Source of the DNA: Cytophagaceae bacterium
GTDB lineage: Bacteria; Bacteroidota; Bacteroidia; Cytophagales; Spirosomataceae
Length of the DNA stretch: 64,000 nt
Assembly (NCBI GenBank): GCA_005791165.1
Contig: SXXW01000040.1
Location: 1 to 64,000 of the forward strand
Reading direction: 5' to 3'
Every line of letters starts with the position of its first letter. The first letter of the stretch is position 1. Below the pieces are notes generated by a model, which worked only from the letters and a program-made list of their open reading frames with translations, made no database searches and had not been told where the DNA came from. The position numbers and the translations under genes are program-made. Positions 350-9,481 of this stretch are shown here, piece after piece.

Positions 350-613
350 CGATTTACATACAACATGCCACTAGGTGCAAATTACGCTAAACCTCAATTA
401 ACAGACGAAGAAGCATGGGATTTGGCAGCTTATGTAAATTCGATGTCTCGCCCTAGTAAGGATTTAAGTAAGGATTGGCCAGATATCGCGGGCAAGCCTT
501 TCGATCATCCATTTGGTCCTTTTGCGGATCCATTTACAGAAGATCAACATAAATATGGACCTTATAAGCCTATAAAAGAGTGGATTGCTAAACACAAGAA
601 TTCAAAAAAATAA
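350..613 (+). pseudogene. C-terminal fragment of a c-type (TsdA-like) cytochrome
   Basis: About 87 codons remain open after a TGA at 347-349. They encode the C-terminal end of a diheme-type cytochrome c: NMPLG, then LTDEEAWDLAAYVNSMSRP, and a tail with QHKYGPYKP. This resembles thiosulfate-dehydrogenase (TsdA)-like or Sox-linked cytochromes. NMPLG would supply the distal Met ligand. No CxxCH heme site is left, so the fragment cannot bind heme as it stands. The missing 5' part ends between this frame and the left inverted repeat (243), suggesting that the event that placed the repeat truncated the gene. It lies 4 bases upstream of soxB and was probably once in its operon. An internal ATG at 365 could be used, but a functional product is unlikely. 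Confidence 0.7.
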
Positions 614-617
614 ACGA

Positions 618-2291
618 ATGAACTCAAGAAGAAAATTTTTACAAGGTGGAATTCTGACAAGTGTAGCAGCTTTAACGCCTTCTACCTTACAGGCTAAAAG
701 TATTGAAAATAATGCGCCAACGTCTAAATCAATGGTTGGCTCGGGTCAAATTACCATTTTACAAACCACGGATGTGCACTGCCAATTGCATGCACATGAT
801 GAATTGTTTTGGGAAAATAATGAGTTGACCTTTCGTCAGGCAGGCGGCTATCCACACATGGCGACTGCATTAAAGAAATTAAAGGAGAAAAATCCAGGAA
901 ATACAATCACTTTAGATACTGGTGATATGTTTCAAGGAAGTATGTTGTCTGTAAAAACGACAGGTCAGGCATTCGTTCCCTTGCTAAATGCTATGGATTA
1001 CGACCTTTATTTGCCTGGCAACTGGGAAGTGGTTTATTATAAGAAAAACATGCAGAAATTGTTGGGAGGTTTATTAGCTCCCAAAATTTGTGCGAATATG
1101 TTCCATGATCTTGGCAATGGGAAAAAAGGTGAACTTATCTTTCAGCCTTATCAAATCATGCACCGCCTAGGGGTAAAAATTGGTTTTTTAGGCTATACGG
1201 ATCCATTGGTTCCTTTGCGTCAATCGCCTTTATATTCAAAAGGTATTATTTATACTAAGCCAGAGGATAATCTTAAAGAATATGTGACTTTATTGCGCGA
1301 ACAAGAACAATGTGACTTTGTCATTATTTTATCACATCTAGGCCTATCTCAACAAATCGCATTGGGAAATAATCCTGATTGCCAAGGTGTTGACTACATT
1401 TTCGGAGCAGATACGCATGAGCGAGTTCGTAAGCCGATTCAAGCGGAGTATACGAAAATTGTAGAGCCAGGAGCGTTTGGCTCTTTCATCGGTAAACTTG
1501 ATATTCATGTGAAAGACGGCAAGGCTATGGGGTCCTCCTATGAATTAGTGGAGGTTGACCCTATGAAATATCCTGCTGATCCGGCCATAAAGAACTTAGT
1601 TCAAGACTTAGAGAAACCATTTAAATAAGAAATTAATAAGGTTTTAGGGTACAGTACTGTTCCACTTTACAGGAATTTTGTTGTAGAAAACACGATTGAT
1701 ACGATGATTGTAGATGCGCTAAAATGGAAAGTAAATGCAGATGTTGTTTTATCCAATGGATTTCGTTTTTGCCCACCCCGTGTACCTGGGAAGGATGGGA
1801 AAGTGGCCATTACAGAAGGTTATTTGTATGATATGCTGCCGGTAGATTCCACGATTCGAACGGCAAAAGCCACGGGCCAACAAATCATGAATTGGTTAGA
1901 AAAGGAATTGCAGAATGTTTTTGCACAGGATGCATCCCTGCGTTTTGGCGGTTGGTTTATACGTTTCAAGGGCATGCAAGTGGAGTTCAAAGCATTTGAG
2001 CGAGCAGGGCATCGTGTTCAAAAAGTGATTATCGGTGATGGTCCTTTAGAGCTAGAGAAATCTTACGTGCTTTGTGCATGCGAGCGTGATGGAGATCCAG
2101 AGGATATGCTTTGTCGAATGAAAGGCGTAAAGGAGGCTAAGAATACGGCTTATACGCTTCATAGCATGATGAAAGAATATTTAGCTAAATTCTCTCCCGT
2201 AACGCCTACCTTGCGTCATGATGCTAAGATTTTAGATGGTCCACAGACTTTGTTAAGTCAGGTGACTGGTGTGGATTATACGTTTAGGTAA
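618..2291 (+). pseudogene. soxB: SoxB thiosulfohydrolase gene interrupted by an in-frame stop
   Basis: SoxB is the periplasmic dimanganese hydrolase that releases sulfate from SoxY-bound thiosulfonate in thiosulfate oxidation. The ATG at 618 gives a twin-arginine signal (NSRRKFLQGG). Metallophosphatase motifs follow in order: TTDVHCQLH, LDTGDMFQGS, GNWE, ILSHLG and GADTHE. A TAA at 1626-1628 (codon 337) then breaks the frame. The same frame is open again immediately afterwards (EINKVLGYSTVPLYRN...) through to 2291, covering the C-terminal nucleotidase domain. Without the stop the protein would be about 557 aa, the normal SoxB length. There is no frameshift and no insertion, so a single nonsense change or a sequencing error is the simplest reading. 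No soxAXYZCD lies nearby, so a classical Sox pathway is not supported here. Confidence 0.88.
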
Positions 2292-2350: not shown

Positions 2351-2824
2351 TCACGTAGTTAAAAATGCAGAGTACATCCAGACTAGTTTTTCTTGAGCTC
2401 GAATGTAATTACTCATTAGTGCATTTGTCCCTTCATCTTCCGCTGCTAAATGTAAGATTTCCCGTTGGAGTGTAATTGTAATTCTAAATGATTCAAGGAT
2501 ATTTTCCACGGCCTTAATTCCGTCTGAAACTTCTGTACTTTCAGTAATAAGAGAAGTTTGTTTGTAGGTAGAATAGTTGTGAAGCGGCGTGTTTCCTAAG
2601 GTTAGTATGCGTTCTGCTACTTCATCTATTTTTAAAAGTAAATCAGTATACAATTCCTCGAATTTCAAGTGAAGTTCAAAGAATTTTTGGCCTTTGATGT
2701 TCCAATGGTATCCTCTTGTATTTTGATAGAAAATAGAATAATTCGCTAAAAGAGTATTTAATTTCTCTGCAAGCTCTTTCGATTTAGACTTGTCAAGTCC
2801 AATGGCATTTAGATTTTTCATCAT
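2351..2824 (-). CDS. dps: Dps-family mini-ferritin
   Basis: This is a DNA-binding protein from starved cells (Dps) type mini-ferritin. Such proteins form dodecamers that oxidise Fe(II) with peroxide and store the iron, protecting DNA. The 157 aa length is typical. The inter-subunit ferroxidase residues match the E. coli pattern with a constant offset: His40 (GYHW), His52, Glu56, Asp67 and Glu71 (DEVAER). It lies 88 bases after the YeeE/YedE gene on the same strand, so it may be partly co-transcribed with the sulfur operon or have its own promoter. No GTGAT-N4-ATCAC palindrome is seen in front of it. Its presence beside a peroxiredoxin and persulfide genes suggests a joint oxidative and sulfur stress role (inference). 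Confidence 0.92.
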   Translation of the reverse strand: MMKNLNAIGLDKSKSKELAEKLNTLLANYSIFYQNTRGYHWNIKGQKFFELHLKFEELYTDLLLKIDEVAERILTLGNTPLHNYSTYKQTSLITESTEVSDGIKAVENILESFRITITLQREILHLAAEDEGTNALMSNYIRAQEKLVWMYSAFLTT

Positions 2825-2912
2825 TTTAGTTATTTATTTTCCGTCGCTATTATTTATATATCTTTAAAAACTAAAGAGGGATTCCGACTTAAACTAAAAT
2901 CCTTCTTATTCC

Positions 2913-3422
2913 TTAGTGAGGCAACTGGTCTCTAAACTTACCATAAACCCACGTGCCGGCTGTAGCGCTGAGAATAACGACTAAAACAACTAGGGCACCT
3001 GAACCTACTTGTGCAAAAAGTGGACCAGGACAAGCACCCGTAAGTGCCCACCCTAGACCAAATGTTAGCCCACCCAGGATTTGGCCTTTATTGAATTTTT
3101 TGTCGGTGAACGTAATTTCTTCTCCATGTATCGTTTTAACCTTGAATTTCTTGATTAGAAATACGGATATCGCACCTACAACCACGGCTGTTCCAATAAC
3201 GCCATACATGTGAAAACTTTGAAGGCGGAACATTTCTTGAATTCTGAACCAAGAGATGATTTCAGCTTTGATGAATACGATTCCAAAAATAATACCGACT
3301 AAACTATATTTTAAGTTGTAGTACCAAGGGTGCTTTAATTCGGATTCATTCACACACATAGTGTCTAATGAACGTACTTCGAAATCTGTCGGATTTGTGT
3401 GTTGATTTGTCTTGTTTTCCAT
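2913..3422 (-). CDS. YeeE/YedE-family sulfur transporter, second half (DUF6691-like)
   Basis: A 169 aa membrane protein of the YeeE/YedE (TsuA/PmpB) class, which moves thiosulfate or other reduced sulfur compounds across the inner membrane. About four hydrophobic segments are visible. The family Cys motif GACPGP lies near residue 130 and is thought to relay the sulfur substrate. A polar N-terminal stretch of about 35 residues precedes the first segment. It starts 5 bases after the 187 aa partner gene, so both are translated from one message. Many bacteria carry this transporter as two half-size genes, which is the arrangement here. The substrate is inferred from family and context (sulfide, persulfide or thiosulfate). 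Confidence 0.85.
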   Translation of the reverse strand: MENKTNQHTNPTDFEVRSLDTMCVNESELKHPWYYNLKYSLVGIIFGIVFIKAEIISWFRIQEMFRLQSFHMYGVIGTAVVVGAISVFLIKKFKVKTIHGEEITFTDKKFNKGQILGGLTFGLGWALTGACPGPLFAQVGSGALVVLVVILSATAGTWVYGKFRDQLPH

Positions 3423-3427
3423 GTGAA

Positions 3428-3991
3428 TTATAGGTGTAAGATGAATGGTAAAATGAAATTAGCCATGATGAATCCACCAATCATAAAGCAGATGGTAGCG
3501 ATTAAAGATGGCCACTGTAAGTCGGAAAGTCCCATAATGGCATGACCTGATGTACATCCACCCGCATAACGAGCGCCGAAACCCACTAAAAATCCACCTC
3601 CAATCATCATGACTAGGCCACGGACTGTGAATAAAGATTCAAATGAGAATAATTGTTTAGTTACCATACCTGAGAAATCAGTGATGCCATAACTAGCTAA
3701 TTCTTTTGCTAAATCTGGGTGCACGATAACGTCATCTCCTGATCCTAAGTATAGGGTTGAGATGATGCCGCCCACTAATATTCCGCCAACAAAAAAGAAA
3801 TTCCACGATTCTTTTTTCCAATCGTATTTGAAAAATGGAATGTTGCTAGGTAAACATGCTGCGCACGCATGGCGTAGGTTAGCTGATATGCCAAAGTGTT
3901 TGTTGCCTAGGATTAATAAGGCCGGGACAATAAGTCCAATAATGATTCCAGCCGTATACCAAGGCCAAGGTTGGGTGATCGTTTCCATCAT
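3428..3991 (-). CDS. YeeE/YedE-family sulfur transporter, first half
   Basis: A 187 aa polytopic membrane protein of the YeeE/YedE family. The signature GARYAGGCTSGHAIMG around residues 138-153 carries the conserved Cys of thiosulfate transporter TsuA and PmpA-like proteins. About five hydrophobic segments are seen. A Cys pair (CAACLP) in the first loop is an additional feature. It lies 52 bases downstream of the small DUF6132-like gene and 5 bases upstream of its 169 aa partner. Together with the persulfide dioxygenase, rhodanese and TSUP genes it forms a leftward sulfur operon reading from 7082 to 2913. Confidence 0.87.
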   Translation of the reverse strand: MMETITQPWPWYTAGIIIGLIVPALLILGNKHFGISANLRHACAACLPSNIPFFKYDWKKESWNFFFVGGILVGGIISTLYLGSGDDVIVHPDLAKELASYGITDFSGMVTKQLFSFESLFTVRGLVMMIGGGFLVGFGARYAGGCTSGHAIMGLSDLQWPSLIATICFMIGGFIMANFILPFILHL

Positions 3992-4043
3992 AGTAAGTTA
4001 ATTTAGTCGATAGTCTATTTCTAAAATTAATTCAATTTATAAT

Positions 4044-4265
4044 TTATATTTCTTTTTGCTCTGGTTTTAGCTTACGCCATTGTGAAATTGTACCTAGTAT
4101 GAAATAGCCTAAAACAGCGAAATAAACAATGCTATTTAGTGGCTTACTCGTAATCGGACAGGTTCCTGATACGCATCCAATATCTCTCCAATAGAAATAT
4201 CCGCCAATTCCACCGAATATTCCTCCTAAGATTTGCCAACCATTATTTCGAATGAAATTCTTCAT
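4044..4265 (-). CDS. Small DUF6132-like membrane protein
   Basis: About 73 aa, with two hydrophobic segments and a Cys-containing loop (IGCVSGTCPITSKP) between them. This pattern fits the DUF6132 family found in Bacteroidota sulfur and metal clusters. I chose the ATG at 4265 (MKNFIRNNGW) because family members begin there; an upstream ATG at 4280 would only add MMMWN. It overlaps the end of the preceding DUF2892 gene by 23 bases. The function is unknown. The conserved cysteines and the position between rhodanese and YeeE/YedE genes suggest a helper for sulfur transfer across the membrane (inference). Confidence 0.72.
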   Translation of the reverse strand: MKNFIRNNGWQILGGIFGGIGGYFYWRDIGCVSGTCPITSKPLNSIVYFAVLGYFILGTISQWRKLKPEQKEI

Positions 4266-4491
4266 ATTCCACATCATCATTTTCTTTTATTGTTGATTTA
4301 TGTACGGGGACTCCACATCCTTGAGTACCGCATCCTGCGTTCAATAGTGCCATTCCTACCAGCACTAACCCAAGTATACCCATGAGTATGTCATGACCTC
4401 GATAAGCTTCGATCAAGGCATATCCTCCTAAAACGAGACGAATGATACGCATAACGTTCCAATTCTGTGTCAGTGTTGTGAACATGTTCAT
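4243..4491 (-). CDS. Small DUF2892-like (YgaP-type) membrane protein
   Basis: An 82 aa protein with two predicted transmembrane helices, followed by LNAGCGTQGCGVP and an acidic cytoplasmic tail (KENDDVEYEEF). This resembles DUF2892 proteins and the membrane half of the rhodanese YgaP, where it is joined or adjacent to a rhodanese domain. Here a stand-alone rhodanese gene lies 46 bases upstream in the same operon, so the pair may act as a split YgaP. An ATG at 4485 is an alternative start. The closely spaced cysteines could accept or relay sulfane sulfur (inference). Confidence 0.72.
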   Translation of the reverse strand: MNMFTTLTQNWNVMRIIRLVLGGYALIEAYRGHDILMGILGLVLVGMALLNAGCGTQGCGVPVHKSTIKENDDVEYEEFHSK

Positions 4492-4537
4492 ATTTGTTAA
4501 AAGCCCAGGTCATGCCTGCGCTCATTAAAGGTGTTTG

Positions 4538-4810
4538 TTAATCTTGGAAAATAAGCATTTCATGTAATCCACCCCCGTTAAATACCTCGGTTAATCCTGC
4601 TTGTTTTAACAAGTTCATCGCCATACCTGAACGATTTCCGCTACGGCAATAAACCACGATCGGTCCTTGCATTGCCTTGAACTTATCTAGCCGAAGCGGA
4701 ATTATACCTAATGGTATATTTATGGCACCTTCATAGTGGCCGCTTGCAAATTCTCCTGTTTCACGTACGTCAACAACCGTAGTTGCTGGATTTGCTAATA
4801 ACTTTTCCAT
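4538..4810 (-). CDS. Single-domain rhodanese
   Basis: A cytoplasmic rhodanese of about 90 aa, a class that transfers sulfane sulfur through a cysteine persulfide. The active-site loop is CRSGNRS, preceded by the strand IVVY. DVRETGEFASGHYEGAINIPLG is the conserved N-terminal part. I chose the ATG at 4810, two bases after the stop of the upstream persulfide dioxygenase gene. An in-frame ATG at 4834 would add eight residues and overlap that gene by 22 bases. It probably passes sulfur to or from the dioxygenase fusion encoded just upstream. Confidence 0.9.
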   Translation of the reverse strand: MEKLLANPATTVVDVRETGEFASGHYEGAINIPLGIIPLRLDKFKAMQGPIVVYCRSGNRSGMAMNLLKQAGLTEVFNGGGLHEMLIFQD

Positions 4811-4812
4811 GA

Positions 4813-6231
4813 TTATAAGAGGGTTGAAGGACAAACATAATCTGATACTTGAAACTTGCCTGATTCTTTGATCGCTTTGAAACCACCATTGATGTCAATT
4901 AAGTTATCATATCCACGAGCTCTTAACGTAGAGTTGAAAATCATGGAACGATAACCTCCTGCGCAGTGTACGAAGTAAGTTTTGTTTTTATTGATTTTCA
5001 ACATGCTTTCATTGATGAAATCCAACGGCGCATTTTCTACATCAATTACGTGCTCAGATAAGTATTCTGAATTTTTTCGTACGTCGATGATTTCACCTTC
5101 ACCCGCTGAGACACGCTTAAATGCTTCTGCTGGTTCGATTGATTCGATTTGGTCAAATTCTTTACCTGAAGCTTTCCATGAAGCAAATCCTCCTTTTAGG
5201 TAACCGATCGTAAAGTCGTAACCTACACGAGCTAAACGGGTGATTACTTCTTCTTCACGACCTTCATCTGTTACTAATAAGATTTCTTGCTTGATATCAG
5301 GAATCATGGCACCTACCCAAGGAGCAAAAGATCCATCAATTCCGATGTTAATTGAATTAGGCACAAATCCAGCTGCGAACGTCTGAGGATCACGTGTATC
5401 TAAGACTAGAGCACTAGTTTCGTTCGCTGCTGCCTCAAAACCCTCTGGACTTAAGGCATGTTGGCCACGCTCCAATACTTTGTCAATCGAATCATATCCT
5501 TGGATATTCATCAAAACGTTCAATGGGAAATAAGCCGGGGGAGCTACTAACCCTGTCAAAACCTCTTTTGTAAATGCTTCTTTTGTTAATGCCGGGTTTA
5601 GCGCATAGTTCGTTTTCTTTTGGTTACCCAATGTATCCGTCGTCTCTTTGCTCATATTTTTTCCACAAGCTGAACCAGCTCCGTGGGCAGGATATACGAT
5701 AATATCATCTGCTAAAGGCATGATTTTATTGCGAAGAGAATCATATAAATGACCCGCTAAAATTTCCTCTGTCAAGTCAGCTTTTACTTTTTGAGCTAAA
5801 TCTGGACGTCCTACATCGCCGATGAATAAAGTATCACCTGAGAATAAGCTTGTTTCTTTTCCATGTTCGTCAATCAAAAGGAAACAAGTTGATTCCATCG
5901 TGTGACCTGGTGTATGAATCACCCGGATGGTAGCGTTTCCTAAGGGGAATACTTGACCGTCAGTAGCTGTGATACATTCAAATTCGCAAGCTGCATTGGG
6001 TCCGTAAACGATTGGAGCACCTGTTTTCGCTGATAAATCGATGTGACCAGAAACGAAGTCGGCATGGAAGTGAGTTTCAAATACATACTTTATTTTTGCC
6101 CCATTACGCTTTGCTTTTTCGATGTATGGTTGCACTTCGCGAAGTGGATCGATAATCGCTGCTTCACCATTGTTCTCGATGTAATAAGCACCTTGTGCTA
6201 AGCATCCTGTGTAAATTTGTTCTACTTTCAT
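4813..6231 (-). CDS. Persulfide dioxygenase-rhodanese fusion (Blh/ETHE1-like)
   Basis: A 472 aa fusion. Residues 1 to about 240 form a metallo-beta-lactamase fold of the ETHE1/persulfide dioxygenase type (HFHADFVSGH with His54, His56, Asp58, His63; later HTPGHT and SGDTLFIGDVGRPD). This domain oxidises glutathione or low-molecular-weight persulfide to sulfite with one non-heme iron. Two rhodanese domains follow. The first (about 260-360) lacks the Cys (LLVTDEGREEE) and is probably structural. The second has an intact loop, CAGGYRS, around Cys423. I chose the ATG at 6231, where the fold begins; the upstream in-frame extension is not conserved-looking. It lies 29 bases after the TSUP permease, which could export the sulfite formed. 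Confidence 0.92.
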   Translation of the reverse strand: MKVEQIYTGCLAQGAYYIENNGEAAIIDPLREVQPYIEKAKRNGAKIKYVFETHFHADFVSGHIDLSAKTGAPIVYGPNAACEFECITATDGQVFPLGNATIRVIHTPGHTMESTCFLLIDEHGKETSLFSGDTLFIGDVGRPDLAQKVKADLTEEILAGHLYDSLRNKIMPLADDIIVYPAHGAGSACGKNMSKETTDTLGNQKKTNYALNPALTKEAFTKEVLTGLVAPPAYFPLNVLMNIQGYDSIDKVLERGQHALSPEGFEAAANETSALVLDTRDPQTFAAGFVPNSINIGIDGSFAPWVGAMIPDIKQEILLVTDEGREEEVITRLARVGYDFTIGYLKGGFASWKASGKEFDQIESIEPAEAFKRVSAGEGEIIDVRKNSEYLSEHVIDVENAPLDFINESMLKINKNKTYFVHCAGGYRSMIFNSTLRARGYDNLIDINGGFKAIKESGKFQVSDYVCPSTLL

Positions 6232-6260
6232 TTTATTAATTTTATGCTGTGAATGTTTTT

Positions 6261-7082
6261 TTATTTTAATGGGAAGGCTAATTGTTGGATCAGGATATAC
6301 ATACCCATCACCAAAACAAACCATCCAAAACCTACTTTTAATTTATTTCCGTCTACTTTTTTACTGATGACATCGCCTAAGAAAATCCCAACGATGGCAA
6401 GCCCTGTTACGATTAACAATAAGTTCCAGTCGATTTCTTGATGTCCTAAGTCACCTGTAAATCCAATTAATGATTTAGCCGCAATAATTAACAAGGAGGT
6501 GCCTACAGCCTGTTTCATCGATAATTTTGAAAGCATCACTAAAGCTGGGATGATTAAGAAACCACCACCGGCACCAACTAATCCAGTTAAAGTTCCTACC
6601 ACTGCTCCTTCTATTAGGATCATTGGGTAATTGAATACTTGTTTTTCCTCAACATAGGTTCCTGATTTCTCTTTTTCGCATTGCTCGCATTTACCACGAA
6701 TCATGGATATAGAAGCTGCTACCATCAAAATCGCAAACAAAACCATCATTAAAACAGATTTAGTGACAACAAAATCACCCAAGGTAAATACTTCAGATGG
6801 GATTAAGGGAACGATGAATTTACGCGTGGCATATACAGCTGCAATCGATGGTATGCCAAAAATGACTGCTGTTTTTACGTTGATTAAGCCTTGCTTGTAT
6901 TTAGGAAATGCTCCTACTAGTGAACTAGCTCCTACTACAAAAAGAGAGTAAGCTGTTGCTAGTATGGGATCAACTCCAAATAAGTAGACCAATACAGGCA
7001 CTGTTAAAATGGATCCCCCACCACCAATCAGTCCTAGTGAGACCCCAATTAGTAAAGAAGCAAAATAGCCAATTATTTCCAT
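6261..7082 (-). CDS. TSUP-family sulfite exporter (TauE/SafE-like)
   Basis: A 273 aa inner-membrane protein of the TSUP (TauE/SafE/YfcA) family, which exports sulfite or other C1-C2 sulfur anions. Two repeated halves are visible, each opening with a family glycine motif: GLIGGGGSILTVPVL near residue 18 and GLVGAGGGFLIIPAL near residue 166. A cysteine-bearing cytoplasmic loop (GKCEQCEKEK) joins the halves. It is the first gene of the leftward sulfur operon. The Crp/Fnr-like promoter at 7109-7152 begins 26 bases upstream of its start. Export of the sulfite made by the adjacent dioxygenase is the natural role (inference). Confidence 0.9.
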   Translation of the reverse strand: MEIIGYFASLLIGVSLGLIGGGGSILTVPVLVYLFGVDPILATAYSLFVVGASSLVGAFPKYKQGLINVKTAVIFGIPSIAAVYATRKFIVPLIPSEVFTLGDFVVTKSVLMMVLFAILMVAASISMIRGKCEQCEKEKSGTYVEEKQVFNYPMILIEGAVVGTLTGLVGAGGGFLIIPALVMLSKLSMKQAVGTSLLIIAAKSLIGFTGDLGHQEIDWNLLLIVTGLAIVGIFLGDVISKKVDGNKLKVGFGWFVLVMGMYILIQQLAFPLK

Positions 7083-7108
7083 GCGTTTATTTGTTGTTTT
7101 TGATAATG

Positions 7109-7152
7109 CAAATGTCTGGTGTTTTCAGAAGTTAATTCGTGATATTTATCAC
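7109..7152 (-). promoter_or_regulatory. Crp/Fnr-like activated promoter of the TSUP operon
   Basis: Palindrome GTGATATTTATCAC (7139-7152; arms GTGATA/TATCAC), then exactly 26 bases, then a -7-like element GACATTTG (minus strand, 7109-7116). The start codon follows after 26 bases. The geometry is the same as at 8608-8651 and 9438-9481. GTGA-N6-TCAC is the consensus of the Crp/Fnr family, and a centre about 33 bases upstream of the TTTG fits a class II activator overlapping the -33 region. The regulator itself is not in the window. Confidence 0.72.
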
Positions 7153-7173
7153 AAGCTAATTTTTTTATTTGAC

Positions 7174-8580
7174 CTAAAAATGGAAGTTTAAAATCAAGTT
7201 ATAATTACTCAAATTCACCTTATTAATAATATATTTCTCGTTTTCATAGGTTTCCCCTTGATTGGATTTATGGACGTATAAGGCTTGAATTTCTAAACCT
7301 TCTAAGAATCCTTCGAATTCATAATTGATATCCAAGTTAAGTTGGTTATAGCTAGGAAGTCCATATTTATTTAAAGCTACCTGTTTTACGTCTGGTAGTT
7401 TAAATAAACCATAACTCAGAGATGCCTTAACGGGTAAATTGGGTGTGGCATAGCTTACCTTTCCTACGAAAGCCTGCACATCGCCTAAACCCTCATTACG
7501 CTCTCTAGGCATAAAGGTGAAAAAAGGATCTCTTCCCCATTCTCTGGGCATTAAATAACGGCCTTCACCTGTAATTCGAGTATAATTTAGCGAAGTTTTC
7601 CATTGGTTATTCTCCCAGCCAAGTTTTGTACTAAACACACGGGACATTTGTGAGGGGTCAAAATAGGTTTTCGACGGGTCTTCGTTTCCTCCAAAATTGA
7701 CAGCATGTTGTTCTGTATACTGTACCCCTGCGACCCAATTTCCTTTTTTGATATCCCATTGAATTTGTGACGTATTGAAAACATTATCGACATAAACATT
7801 CCAGACTTTAAAGGAATAACCCTTGGGTAAAGAATGCGTATATCCCACTAAATAAATGCCTTTTGATTCGATGTTCTGCGCATAATTGCCTTTCGTTCCA
7901 TCGATATTTATGCCATTTGAATAAATACCCATTGATTCACCAATCCCATACCAATCCACAGTTCCTCTAGGCGAGATTTCGTATAAATACCCGCCTTCTA
8001 GTTTATTTCTTTTGCCTATATAGATTTCGCCATATAAACCACCTACTTCTGTGGGGCGCATACGTCCATCTTGTAGATTAATGAAGGGCGTATTAATTAA
8101 TTGTTTACCTGCTATTACATGTGATTTGCCAAAGTTGTATTTTAAATATAACTCTTCTAATCGATCTAAATCGTGCTTATTTGCTGGATTTTTTATGTCG
8201 AAGAGGGAAAGTTCATAGCGATTAACTGCTTTAGTAAATGGATCGACTTTCGTCATATCTGACGAACCCAGGTTATAAATAAAATAACCACCTACACCCA
8301 TTTGAAATCCTTTGTAAGCGGCAGTTTCGTAAAATAATCCACCTCCGGCCGCATTTGCATAAGCATCAGTAAGTCGATCTTGATTTTCCGTTGCCATGAA
8401 AAAGTAACGTAGGTTTCCGTGTACTTTTCCATGTTTGAAAGCAAAAAGGAGAGAAGTAGAGTCCTCAGCCATACTTTTTTCCCCTTTCCAAAGATGGGGA
8501 GCAACATGTATCTCTTGGTGTTGGGCAAGTGTAATGGAGGGGATTAAAAGACTGATAAAGACTAGAAAACGAATTTGCAT
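7174..8580 (-). CDS. Outer-membrane porin (OprD-like beta-barrel)
   Basis: A 468 aa protein with a signal peptide (cleavage after SITLAQ, about residue 19), followed by alternating amphipathic strands throughout and a C-terminal aromatic residue (NLILNFHF). This is typical of a 16-18-strand outer-membrane channel. Motifs such as LDRLEELYLKYNFGKSHVIAGKQ and NTPFINLQDGRMRPTEVGG resemble OprD-family porins of Bacteroidota. It has its own promoter of the same design as the sulfur operon and the peroxiredoxin, so it probably admits a sulfur compound or anion used by this regulon (inference). It ends 91 bases before the TSUP start, and no clear terminator is seen between them. Confidence 0.78.
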   Translation of the reverse strand: MQIRFLVFISLLIPSITLAQHQEIHVAPHLWKGEKSMAEDSTSLLFAFKHGKVHGNLRYFFMATENQDRLTDAYANAAGGGLFYETAAYKGFQMGVGGYFIYNLGSSDMTKVDPFTKAVNRYELSLFDIKNPANKHDLDRLEELYLKYNFGKSHVIAGKQLINTPFINLQDGRMRPTEVGGLYGEIYIGKRNKLEGGYLYEISPRGTVDWYGIGESMGIYSNGINIDGTKGNYAQNIESKGIYLVGYTHSLPKGYSFKVWNVYVDNVFNTSQIQWDIKKGNWVAGVQYTEQHAVNFGGNEDPSKTYFDPSQMSRVFSTKLGWENNQWKTSLNYTRITGEGRYLMPREWGRDPFFTFMPRERNEGLGDVQAFVGKVSYATPNLPVKASLSYGLFKLPDVKQVALNKYGLPSYNQLNLDINYEFEGFLEGLEIQALYVHKSNQGETYENEKYIINKVNLSNYNLILNFHF

Positions 8581-8607
8581 AAGACAGATTTATTTGATTA
8601 ACAGCTG

Positions 8608-8651
8608 CAAAATTCCGCTTAATTTACCGCTCTTTATGTGATTAATATCAC
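8608..8651 (-). promoter_or_regulatory. Crp/Fnr-like activated promoter of the porin gene
   Basis: Palindrome GTGATTAATATCAC (8638-8651; arms GTGAT/ATCAC), 26 bases, then GAATTTTG (minus strand, 8608-8615) as the -7 element. The start codon lies 27 bases further on. It is the second of three promoters in this island with identical spacing. Confidence 0.72.
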
Positions 8652-8722
8652 AAGTTCTTTAAACGATGATTTTGATATAGCCCTTCTTCGCTAATTTCTT
8701 CACTAACTAATTAGAAAAAGAA

Positions 8723-8753
8723 AAAGCCGCTATTTAGTTTTAATAGCGGCTTT
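8723..8753 (-). terminator. Terminator of the peroxiredoxin gene
   Basis: A 12-bp stem (AAAGCCGCTATT / AATAGCGGCTTT) with a 7-base loop, five bases past the peroxiredoxin stop. On the minus strand it runs into a T-rich tract. It separates the peroxiredoxin transcript from the porin promoter. Confidence 0.85.
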
Positions 8754-8758
8754 CTTTT

Positions 8759-9412
8759 TTAGATGGTTTTCTTCGCCAAATAAAAATCGATTTTTTCACA
8801 TGTCGTATCTGCGATACGTGCATCCATTTCAGCCAAGGTTTTTGGTGGAGGAATAATCACCTTTTCACCTGGTTTCCAATTTAAAGGCATAGCTACTTTG
8901 TGTTTATCAGTGAATTGTAGAGCTTGAAGAGCACGGACAATTTCATCCATATTACGCCCTACGTTTAACGGATAGTACATGATGAGACGAATTTTCTTAG
9001 ACGGATCAATGAAGAATACGGCACGAACCGCTGCCGTTTCACTTTCATTGGGCTGTAGCATGCCGTATAATTTTGATACGTGCATGTCTATATCGGCGAT
9101 GATCGGGAATTGAAAATACACCCCTGTTTTTTCACGAACGTTATTTACCCAGGCTAGATGTGAGTGAATGCTGTCAATGCTCAAGCCCAAAAGTTCCGTA
9201 TTCATTGCCGTGAACTCATCATGTCTTTCGGCAAATCCACTCATCTCCGTGGTACATACTGGAGTGAAGTCGGCCGGATGCGAAAACATCACAATCCATT
9301 TGTCTTTTGCGAAGTCTGAAAATTTCATTTTACCTGTTGTCGTTACTGCGGTAAAGTCAGGTGCCATATCCCCAATCCGAGGCATTGCATACATTTGTTC
9401 AGTAGTTTCCAT
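8759..9412 (-). CDS. 1-Cys peroxiredoxin (Prx6 class)
   Basis: A 217 aa cytoplasmic peroxidase that reduces hydrogen peroxide and organic peroxides; some members also act on persulfides. The peroxidatic cysteine is in HPADFTPVCTTE (about Cys53). The C-terminal half has the Prx6 arm (NVGRNMDEIVRALQALQ and MPLNWKPGEKVIIPPP). No resolving cysteine of the 2-Cys type is evident. It is transcribed alone, between the Crp/Fnr-like promoter at 9438-9481 and the terminator at 8723-8753. Sharing that promoter design with the persulfide operon ties it to sulfur stress. Confidence 0.93.
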   Translation of the reverse strand: METTEQMYAMPRIGDMAPDFTAVTTTGKMKFSDFAKDKWIVMFSHPADFTPVCTTEMSGFAERHDEFTAMNTELLGLSIDSIHSHLAWVNNVREKTGVYFQFPIIADIDMHVSKLYGMLQPNESETAAVRAVFFIDPSKKIRLIMYYPLNVGRNMDEIVRALQALQFTDKHKVAMPLNWKPGEKVIIPPPKTLAEMDARIADTTCEKIDFYLAKKTI

Positions 9413-9437
9413 GATCTTTTTGTTTATTAGTACACAG

Positions 9438-9481
9438 CAAACTTAATGAGCTAATGAGTCTTAATTCGTGATAATTATCAC
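9438..9481 (-). promoter_or_regulatory. Crp/Fnr-like activated promoter of the peroxiredoxin gene
   Basis: A fully symmetric palindrome GTGATAATTATCAC (9468-9481), 26 bases, then a perfect Bacteroidota -7 element TAAGTTTG (TANNTTTG; minus strand, 9438-9445). The start codon is 25 bases downstream. It is the best of the three copies and shares the bases CGAATTAA after the palindrome with the TSUP promoter. Confidence 0.78.

Follow-up and report, generated by a model that had tools for sequence, protein, structure and literature searches.

Three promoters of fixed geometry in a Cytophagaceae contig point to a probable Crp/Fnr-type regulon for sulfide and persulfide disposal

We examined three 44-base promoter elements within a 64,000-nucleotide stretch of DNA from a Cytophagaceae bacterium (positions 1 to 64,000 of contig SXXW01000040.1, assembly GCA_005791165.1; hereafter the window), each made up of the palindrome GTGAT-N4-ATCAC, exactly 26 bases and the tetramer TTTG, and lying upstream of a TSUP operon, a porin gene and a peroxiredoxin gene. 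Comparison of sequences indicates that the three elements are probably class II promoters of one Crp/Fnr-controlled regulon for the disposal of sulfide and persulfide. The original prediction had placed them at 7109–7152, 8608–8651 and 9438–9481, 25–27 bases before their start codons, and all were found there, with gaps of 26 bases (TSUP), 27 (porin) and 25 (peroxiredoxin). The genes are on the minus strand, so that the palindrome occupies the high-coordinate end of each element and CAAA (TTTG on the minus strand) the low end. The accompanying claim of a −7 element held in part: TTTG is present at all three, but the full consensus TAnnTTTG is matched by the peroxiredoxin box alone (TAAGTTTG), the TSUP box GACATTTG and the porin box GAATTTTG deviating from it. 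None of 100 dinucleotide shuffles of the window reached three such 44-mers (mean 0.00), and the exact 14-base palindrome (14-mer) occurred 3 times in the window against 0.06 expected; with two or fewer mismatches allowed it was not enriched there (27 observed, 25.5 expected).

In Flavobacterium psychrophilum, mapped transcription starts put the sigma-A box TAnnTTTG at −12 to −5, where a second form of the box, TAnnTTGY, is also described (PMC9723704). With TTTG at −8 to −5, a 26-base gap puts the palindrome at −48 to −35 and its centre at −41.5; measured from this published box, each of the three palindromes thus lies at the class II position, as had been proposed. The 26-base spacer was found in the window, in relatives, and as a peak across the class.

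A search of the whole assembly (2.57 Mb, 84% complete) for the exact palindrome with 26 bases and TTTG returned, without mismatch, just the three window promoters. The bare 14-mer occurred at 6 places (1 for the reversed control); copies beyond the window lie between divergent SQR-like and cytochrome c genes (contig C4), upstream of an HMA-domain protein (C17), and within what we read as a SusC/TonB-type coding sequence (C41), the last most likely being there by chance. Many copies at unrelated genes or within genes had been named as grounds for giving up the idea; neither in this genome nor in 12 relatives was the full element scattered in that manner. One protein of the genome scored over the HTH_Crp_2 cut-off, a 211-residue product encoded at C4:5915–6550, 2 kb from the C4 palindrome, with two rhodaneses, a DsrE-like protein and (by our reading) a thioredoxin nearby; a weaker second match resembles, to our eye, an AsnC-type protein. 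From its gene neighbourhood and the residue–operator match described below, we propose this protein as the Crp/Fnr regulator for these sites, and consider its probable identity nearly as well supported as the regulon.

Among loci of relatives that carry regulator orthologues, the next gene was a porin or TSUP gene at 31 of 34 and a cytochrome c gene at the other 3, with the exact 14-mer between regulator and next gene at 21 of the 34. The nearest relatives (L043, L049, L075; G009, G010) have the palindrome with one change, GTGATAAAAGTCAC, and TTTG at +26 (that is, after 26 bases), and the operator core is therefore GTGA-N6-TCAC; upstream of TSUP genes in relatives this core was followed by TTTG at +26 in 12 distinct fetched sites. 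The 12 relatives together held 60 exact 14-mers (11 for the reversed control), which by hand tally divide into 31 within genes, 24 upstream of genes of the sulfur-cluster, HMA or methyltransferase kind, and 5 at other intergenic places. TTTG stood at +25/26 in 21 of the 24 target-gene copies versus 0 of the 5 other intergenic ones (the 31 intragenic copies being outside this test); the bare 14-mer is less specific than the 14-mer with its box. When GTGA-N6-TCAC-N25/26-TTTG was sought in the window's own genome and the 12 relatives, 56 rows were obtained versus 3 for the reversed control, and a hand tally assigned 44 to sites leading into a sulfur/redox set (counted so as to include methyltransferase and DUF2202 genes), 3 to the far sides of such sites, 2 to in-cluster places without a clear target, and 7 elsewhere. 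The targets were the TSUP operon, porin, SoxA/TsdA-like cytochrome c, SQR, two kinds of rhodanese, HMA, DUF2202, methyltransferase and peroxiredoxin. The sulfur regulon foreseen in the original prediction is well supported by these targets in relatives; the "sulfite export" named with it comes just from the TauE/SafE family name.

The box varies with the target. At 54 distinct sites upstream of target genes we found TTTG (35) or TTGY (6) at +26, TAATATTA (7, all SQR), or none of these (6), four of the box-less sites being partner palindromes of two divergent SQR/DUF2202 pairs; within this set, L278–L297 come from loci fetched for having TTTG at +25/26. A subset fetched for the palindrome alone (24 sites from relatives and own contigs, window excluded) had, at exactly +26, TTTG at 15, TTGY at 6, TAATATTA at 2 and none at 1. 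The SQR promoters concerned (L009, L122, L282, L286, L291, L295, L296) carry TAATATTA in place of TTTG, exactly 26 bases from the palindrome. Of 6 HMA promoters, 4 had TTGC at +26 (in the own genome TACATTGC), and 2 of 5 porin promoters had CAATTTGC; since an alternative TTGY box exists, the apparent 25-base spacing at some porins may represent a TTGY-type box at +26. Facing the cytochrome c gene, the C4 site has TACTTTTG at 25 bases, which does not match +26. At two loci (L280:6415–7160 and L294:4893–4984) the SQR and DUF2202 genes diverge, and both have a palindrome of their own with TTTG at +26. The site is followed by methyltransferase-like genes in L139 (G012) and L179 (G138), and a related methyltransferase occurs in many sulfur clusters.

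The candidate regulator belongs to the Crp/Fnr superfamily by two domain matches over cut-off (PF00027, 36.5 bits; PF13545, 40 bits). Pfam gave these two domains and FeoC under its cut-off, and no CsoR/CstR, ArsR/SqrR or FisR fold was found in the protein. Its sole cysteines, C75 and C81, follow directly on a G-E pair that we take to belong to the phosphate-binding cassette of CRP; among homologues found with the family's own profile, C75 was conserved in 56 of 56 sequences and C81 in 45 of 56. Position 84, presumably the counterpart of the arginine that contacts the cAMP phosphate in CRP, showed 11 residue types in the 56 sequences, with no conserved arginine. The protein has no N-terminal [4Fe-4S] cysteine set of the FNR kind, its operator is GTGAT, and TTGA half-sites near the regulators gave no peak at 26. 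The closest solved structure by sequence is PDB 3dv8 (E 1.4e-20), with which both cysteines align. An AlphaFold2 model of the regulator (alignment A1) was poor (mean pLDDT 65.9, pTM 0.49) and was not used. In the manner of persulfide-sensing regulators, the sites lie at, and the regulator gene beside, genes for SQR, persulfide dioxygenase and rhodanese. The protein may be a thiol sensor for reactive sulfur.

A scan of 395 genomes of the phylum found the element in 33 of them, at 40 places; the control matched in 1 genome. One conserved coding stretch (family f18) seems to account for seven of these places. In the 17 regions inspected, the genes behind sites with TTTG at +26 encode a porin, a rhodanese, a dioxygenase, transporters of the SulP-like and YeeE types and the regulator itself, and a methyltransferase gene stands farther off; an SQR gene (G304) had the palindrome with TTTG absent at the expected place, and the remaining regions had genes without a sulfur link, no gene, or an intragenic site. 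Homologues of the regulator at E 1e-10 or better were present in 76 of 119 Bacteroidia genomes (83 matches). We assembled 55 regulator regions, 15 from 13 genomes chosen for holding the 44-mer and 40 hand-picked from the 83 matches without regard to the motif, several of the 55 being shortened by contig ends. Sulfur genes lay within 9.5 kb of the regulator homologue in 37 of the 55, and in 27 of the 40 motif-blind regions; none was seen in 20 comparison regions, 18-kb stretches of regulator-bearing contigs in these genomes whose positions were hand-picked rather than drawn at random. Networks of this kind seem to occur in many other Bacteroidia.

Residue 181 of the regulator, which we take to correspond to E181 of CRP, was Glu in 33 and Val in 23 of the 56 sequences, and it aligns with a Val in NtcA. 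All palindromic four-base half-sites were scanned; GTAA was expected near Val181 after GTGA had been found in 0 of 23 such regions, and from the NtcA site GTAN8TAC (PMC3898017). GTGA ranked first in the Glu181 group (14 sites in 12 of 32 regions; GTAA, 0), and GTAA ranked first in the Val181 group (7 sites in 7 of 23 regions; GTGA, 0), with Fisher p values for residue against half-site of 0.0006 (GTGA) and 0.0012 (GTAA); both half-sites peaked at 26 bases from TTTG. The motif-blind 40 regions gave GTGA in 7 of 21 Glu versus 0 of 19 Val regions (p 0.009), and GTAA in 4 of 19 Val versus 0 of 21 Glu regions (p 0.04). Near E181 regulators the GTGA spacing was 26 bases for 14 sites and 27 for 3, with 0–1 at every other distance from 18 to 35. 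Next to the 14 Glu-group sites, the regulator's own gene and OsmC-like genes were each found twice, small YgaP-like genes (by our reading) three times, and dioxygenase, rhodanese, YeeE-type and SulP-like transporter genes once each; three others complete the set. All seven Val-group sites read GTAAC-N4-GTTAC; their next genes include YeeE-type, TSUP, HMA-like and YgaP-like members, and in two cases no sulfur link can be named. The two OsmC-like proteins, each with a GTGA site and TTTG at +26, were in L309 (G463) and L316 (G045), with Pfam support in L309 alone; these targets suggest a wider thiol-stress output.

We infer the following course of events. The 211-residue protein, presumably as a dimer, would bind GTGAT-N4-ATCAC at −41.5 next to a sigma-A promoter and help RNA polymerase start at the three class II promoters of one regulon. 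This regulon would serve sulfide and persulfide disposal through SQR-like protein, persulfide dioxygenase and rhodaneses, TSUP and YeeE-type transporters, SoxA/TsdA-like cytochrome c, porin, HMA protein and peroxiredoxin. The signal may be reactive sulfur (persulfide or polysulfide), which Cys75, joined in most members by Cys81, would read at the place that CRP uses for its cyclic nucleotide.

Several results weigh against this account. A GTGA site at +26 was present in just 12 of 55 regulator neighbourhoods, and 3 of the 14 sites lead to genes without a nameable sulfur link. Parsimony counts 5 changes at residue 181, of which starred branches force at least 3, and the independent pairs, 2 starred and 3 in all, were concordant with a sign-test p of 0.5; the independent changes are few, so that shared ancestry inflates the Fisher values given above. 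Genome-wide GTAA sites in 20 V181 genomes numbered 57 versus 43 for the reversed control, a narrow excess that makes for a weak test. The regulator gene is on a different contig from the window in an assembly that is 84% complete, and an unassembled second Crp/Fnr protein is therefore possible. C81 is missing in 11 of 55 homologues, and sulfur neighbours were found for 30 of 44 with C81 versus 7 of 11 without it (Fisher p = 1). Since the presence of C81 does not predict sulfur neighbours, the case for a switch that needs both cysteines is weaker; a strict two-cysteine rule was dropped, and C75 alone is claimed as invariant. Finally, the peroxiredoxin site is limited to two genomes, there being one close orthologue with a site (G011, 96% identical, GTGATAATTGTCAC, TTTG at +26); the homologues of other relatives are at 48% identity or less (ten genomes; G009 has none), and none of their places was among the GTGA-N6-TCAC-N25/26-TTTG rows.

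The other genome-wide counts, like the GTAA count above, exclude G014, G214 and G441, which hold both regulator types. GTAA sites in 28 E181 genomes numbered 44 versus 75 for the reversed control. The narrower GTAAC-N4-GTTAC was present in 10 of 20 V181 versus 7 of 28 E181 genomes (Fisher p 0.13; Mann-Whitney on counts p 0.04). GTGA sites numbered 64 in the 28 E181 genomes (control 20, 7 of them in G431) versus 16 in the 20 V181 genomes (control 1); second homologues in G024, G459 and G466 were outside the analysis, and these V181 genomes may thus hold another type as well.

The alternative that fares best keeps the operator and the regulator and changes the signal to disulfide or peroxide redox, oxygen limitation, nitrosative stress, or a thiosulfate- or sulfite-like ligand, with sulfur genes as one output. 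The peroxiredoxin target, the OsmC-like protein of two other genomes and the single-cysteine members fit such a signal, and redox-switched Crp/Fnr proteins (CprK, FLP) are known; however, sulfide, persulfide and thiosulfate genes, with adjoining transporters, make up most of the targets in relatives, and a protein whose sole cysteines are C75 and C81 has no N-terminal Fe-S set. We regard a non-persulfide signal as possible, though somewhat doubtful. It is unlikely that the regulator acts as a repressor or with a different promoter, the 26 bases then being no class II contact: the deviation of the TSUP and porin boxes from TAnnTTTG would suit this, but near E181 regulators the spacing is sharply fixed at 26, and a repressor site could shift its position freely. 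An ordinary cAMP-responsive CRP that places sulfur genes under catabolite control would share the GTGA half-site and R180-E181-R185 with E. coli CRP, and the cNMP_binding domain is over cut-off; the match to the CRP equivalog model was, however, 38.4 bits versus a cut-off of 266, the presumed cAMP-phosphate position is variable, and the sites are few and mainly at sulfur genes, which makes this very improbable. Chance palindromes in AT-rich intergenic DNA are a negligible explanation: with 31 of 60 copies intragenic and 11 control matches the bare 14-mer does arise by chance, but the shuffles yielded no triplicate, and at orthologous promoters the site, its box and the distance between them are conserved, which already refutes it.

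Taking the sulfide/persulfide regulon as the preferred reading, we put forward tentatively, and with less than even confidence, a wider proposal: that in these Crp/Fnr activators, spread across the Bacteroidia, the cyclic-nucleotide pocket has become a thiol-based sensor of reactive sulfur, and that a single residue of the recognition helix has switched the operator between GTGA and GTAA (either way) on more than one occasion, the −41.5 position and the role in sulfur handling being kept. Persulfide sensing on a Crp/Fnr fold was a link not found in the literature searched.

The genes of the window and the parts of each promoter are collected in the table. The product of the gene that follows the TSUP gene we take to be CstB-like. 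At 585–2291 (+) lies a phosphoesterase that we label SoxB-like (Pfam Metallophos), in two open frames of the same reading frame, 585–1628 and 1704–2291; the split may reflect a stop codon within the frame, an error or gene breakage. In most fetched relatives the regulator gene stands beside the porin or TSUP gene, at the place that peroxiredoxin has in the window. On C4 of the own genome (G000, L009:5288–6550) a DUF2892-like frame follows the regulator, where the nearest relatives have, by our reading, TSUP and dioxygenase. The window TSUP protein is 93–97% identical to copies linked to regulators of 85–90% identity (L053, L055, L060, L061), and just 83–87% identical to copies linked to regulators of 98–100% identity. 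The TSUP–dioxygenase cluster (window positions 2351–9412) may have been exchanged or moved, with control then exerted in trans.

Table. Promoter parts and genes of the window, with the basis for each assignment
Feature	Positions	Strand	Basis
Operator palindrome, peroxiredoxin promoter	9468–9481	−	GTGATAATTATCAC; GTGATAATTGTCAC + 26 + TTTG at the 96% identical G011 orthologue
−7 box TAAGTTTG, peroxiredoxin promoter	9438–9445	−	fits the consensus TAnnTTTG (PMC9723704)
Operator palindrome, porin promoter	8638–8651	−	GTGATATTAATCAC; counterparts at porin promoters of relatives
−7-like box GAATTTTG, porin promoter	8608–8615	−	sequence
Operator palindrome, TSUP operon	7139–7152	−	GTGATAAATATCAC
−7-like box GACATTTG, TSUP operon	7109–7116	−	sequence; GACATTTG found again in relatives
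Peroxiredoxin (AhpC-TSA, 1-Cys Prx C-terminal domain)	8759–9412	−	NF009668 over its cut-off
Outer-membrane porin-like protein	7174–8580	−	OprD/Opr matches under their cut-offs
TSUP/TauE-SafE permease	6261–7082	−	domain match
Metallo-beta-lactamase fold with two rhodanese stretches, probable persulfide dioxygenase-sulfurtransferase	4813–6231	−	start placed at MKVEQIY
Single-domain rhodanese	4538–4834	−	domain match
Small protein labelled DUF2892 (YgaP-like membrane)	4243–4491	−	label from gene position; no Pfam match of its own
YeeE/YedE-type half-transporter A	3428–3991	−	our label; weak TsuA match under cut-off
YeeE/YedE-type half-transporter B	2913–3422	−	DUF6691 / Sulf_transp

Water, sediment and guts are rich in Bacteroidia, and these bacteria often encounter sulfide. 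In the literature searched we found neither an account of how they turn on sulfide disposal nor a description of this regulon, a weak negative. With a likely regulator, an operator and targets named, the question becomes testable in cultivated Aquirufa strains, and the pairing of Glu or Val at 181 with GTGA or GTAA offers a natural experiment on the joint change of a regulator and its scattered sites.

The known persulfide sensors CstR and YrkD (CsoR family), SqrR, BigR and YgaV (ArsR family) and FisR (a sigma-54 activator) sense with cysteine thiols and control sulfide-oxidation genes; they belong to other protein families, and the CsoR- and ArsR-type sensors are repressors, whereas the present candidate is a Crp/Fnr protein at an activator position. 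FNR (an Fe-S cluster, TTGAT sites), HcpR (heme, TTGAC-type sites) and other Crp/Fnr regulators share the family and the operator geometry, but the present regulator is without such cysteines and has no TTGA peak at 26. PDB 3dv8, its best solved relative by sequence, has both cysteines aligned; it is distant in sequence and annotated merely as a Crp/Fnr-family regulator. The likeness to E. coli CRP extends to the fold family, the GTGA-N6-TCAC operator, the R180-E181-R185 recognition helix and the class II centre at −41.5; in contrast to CRP, the present protein presumably has two cysteines near the cAMP-phosphate position and no conserved arginine there, and its regulon is small and sulfur-centred, with a Bacteroidetes-type −7 box. 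NtcA of cyanobacteria, also of the Crp family, serves nitrogen control with 2-oxoglutarate, whereas the present family is found with sulfur genes. NtcA binds GTAN8TAC at about −41.5 (PMC3898017). It resembles the present family in this position, and its Val at the place of residue 181 recurs in the V181 half, together with GTAAC-N4-GTTAC.

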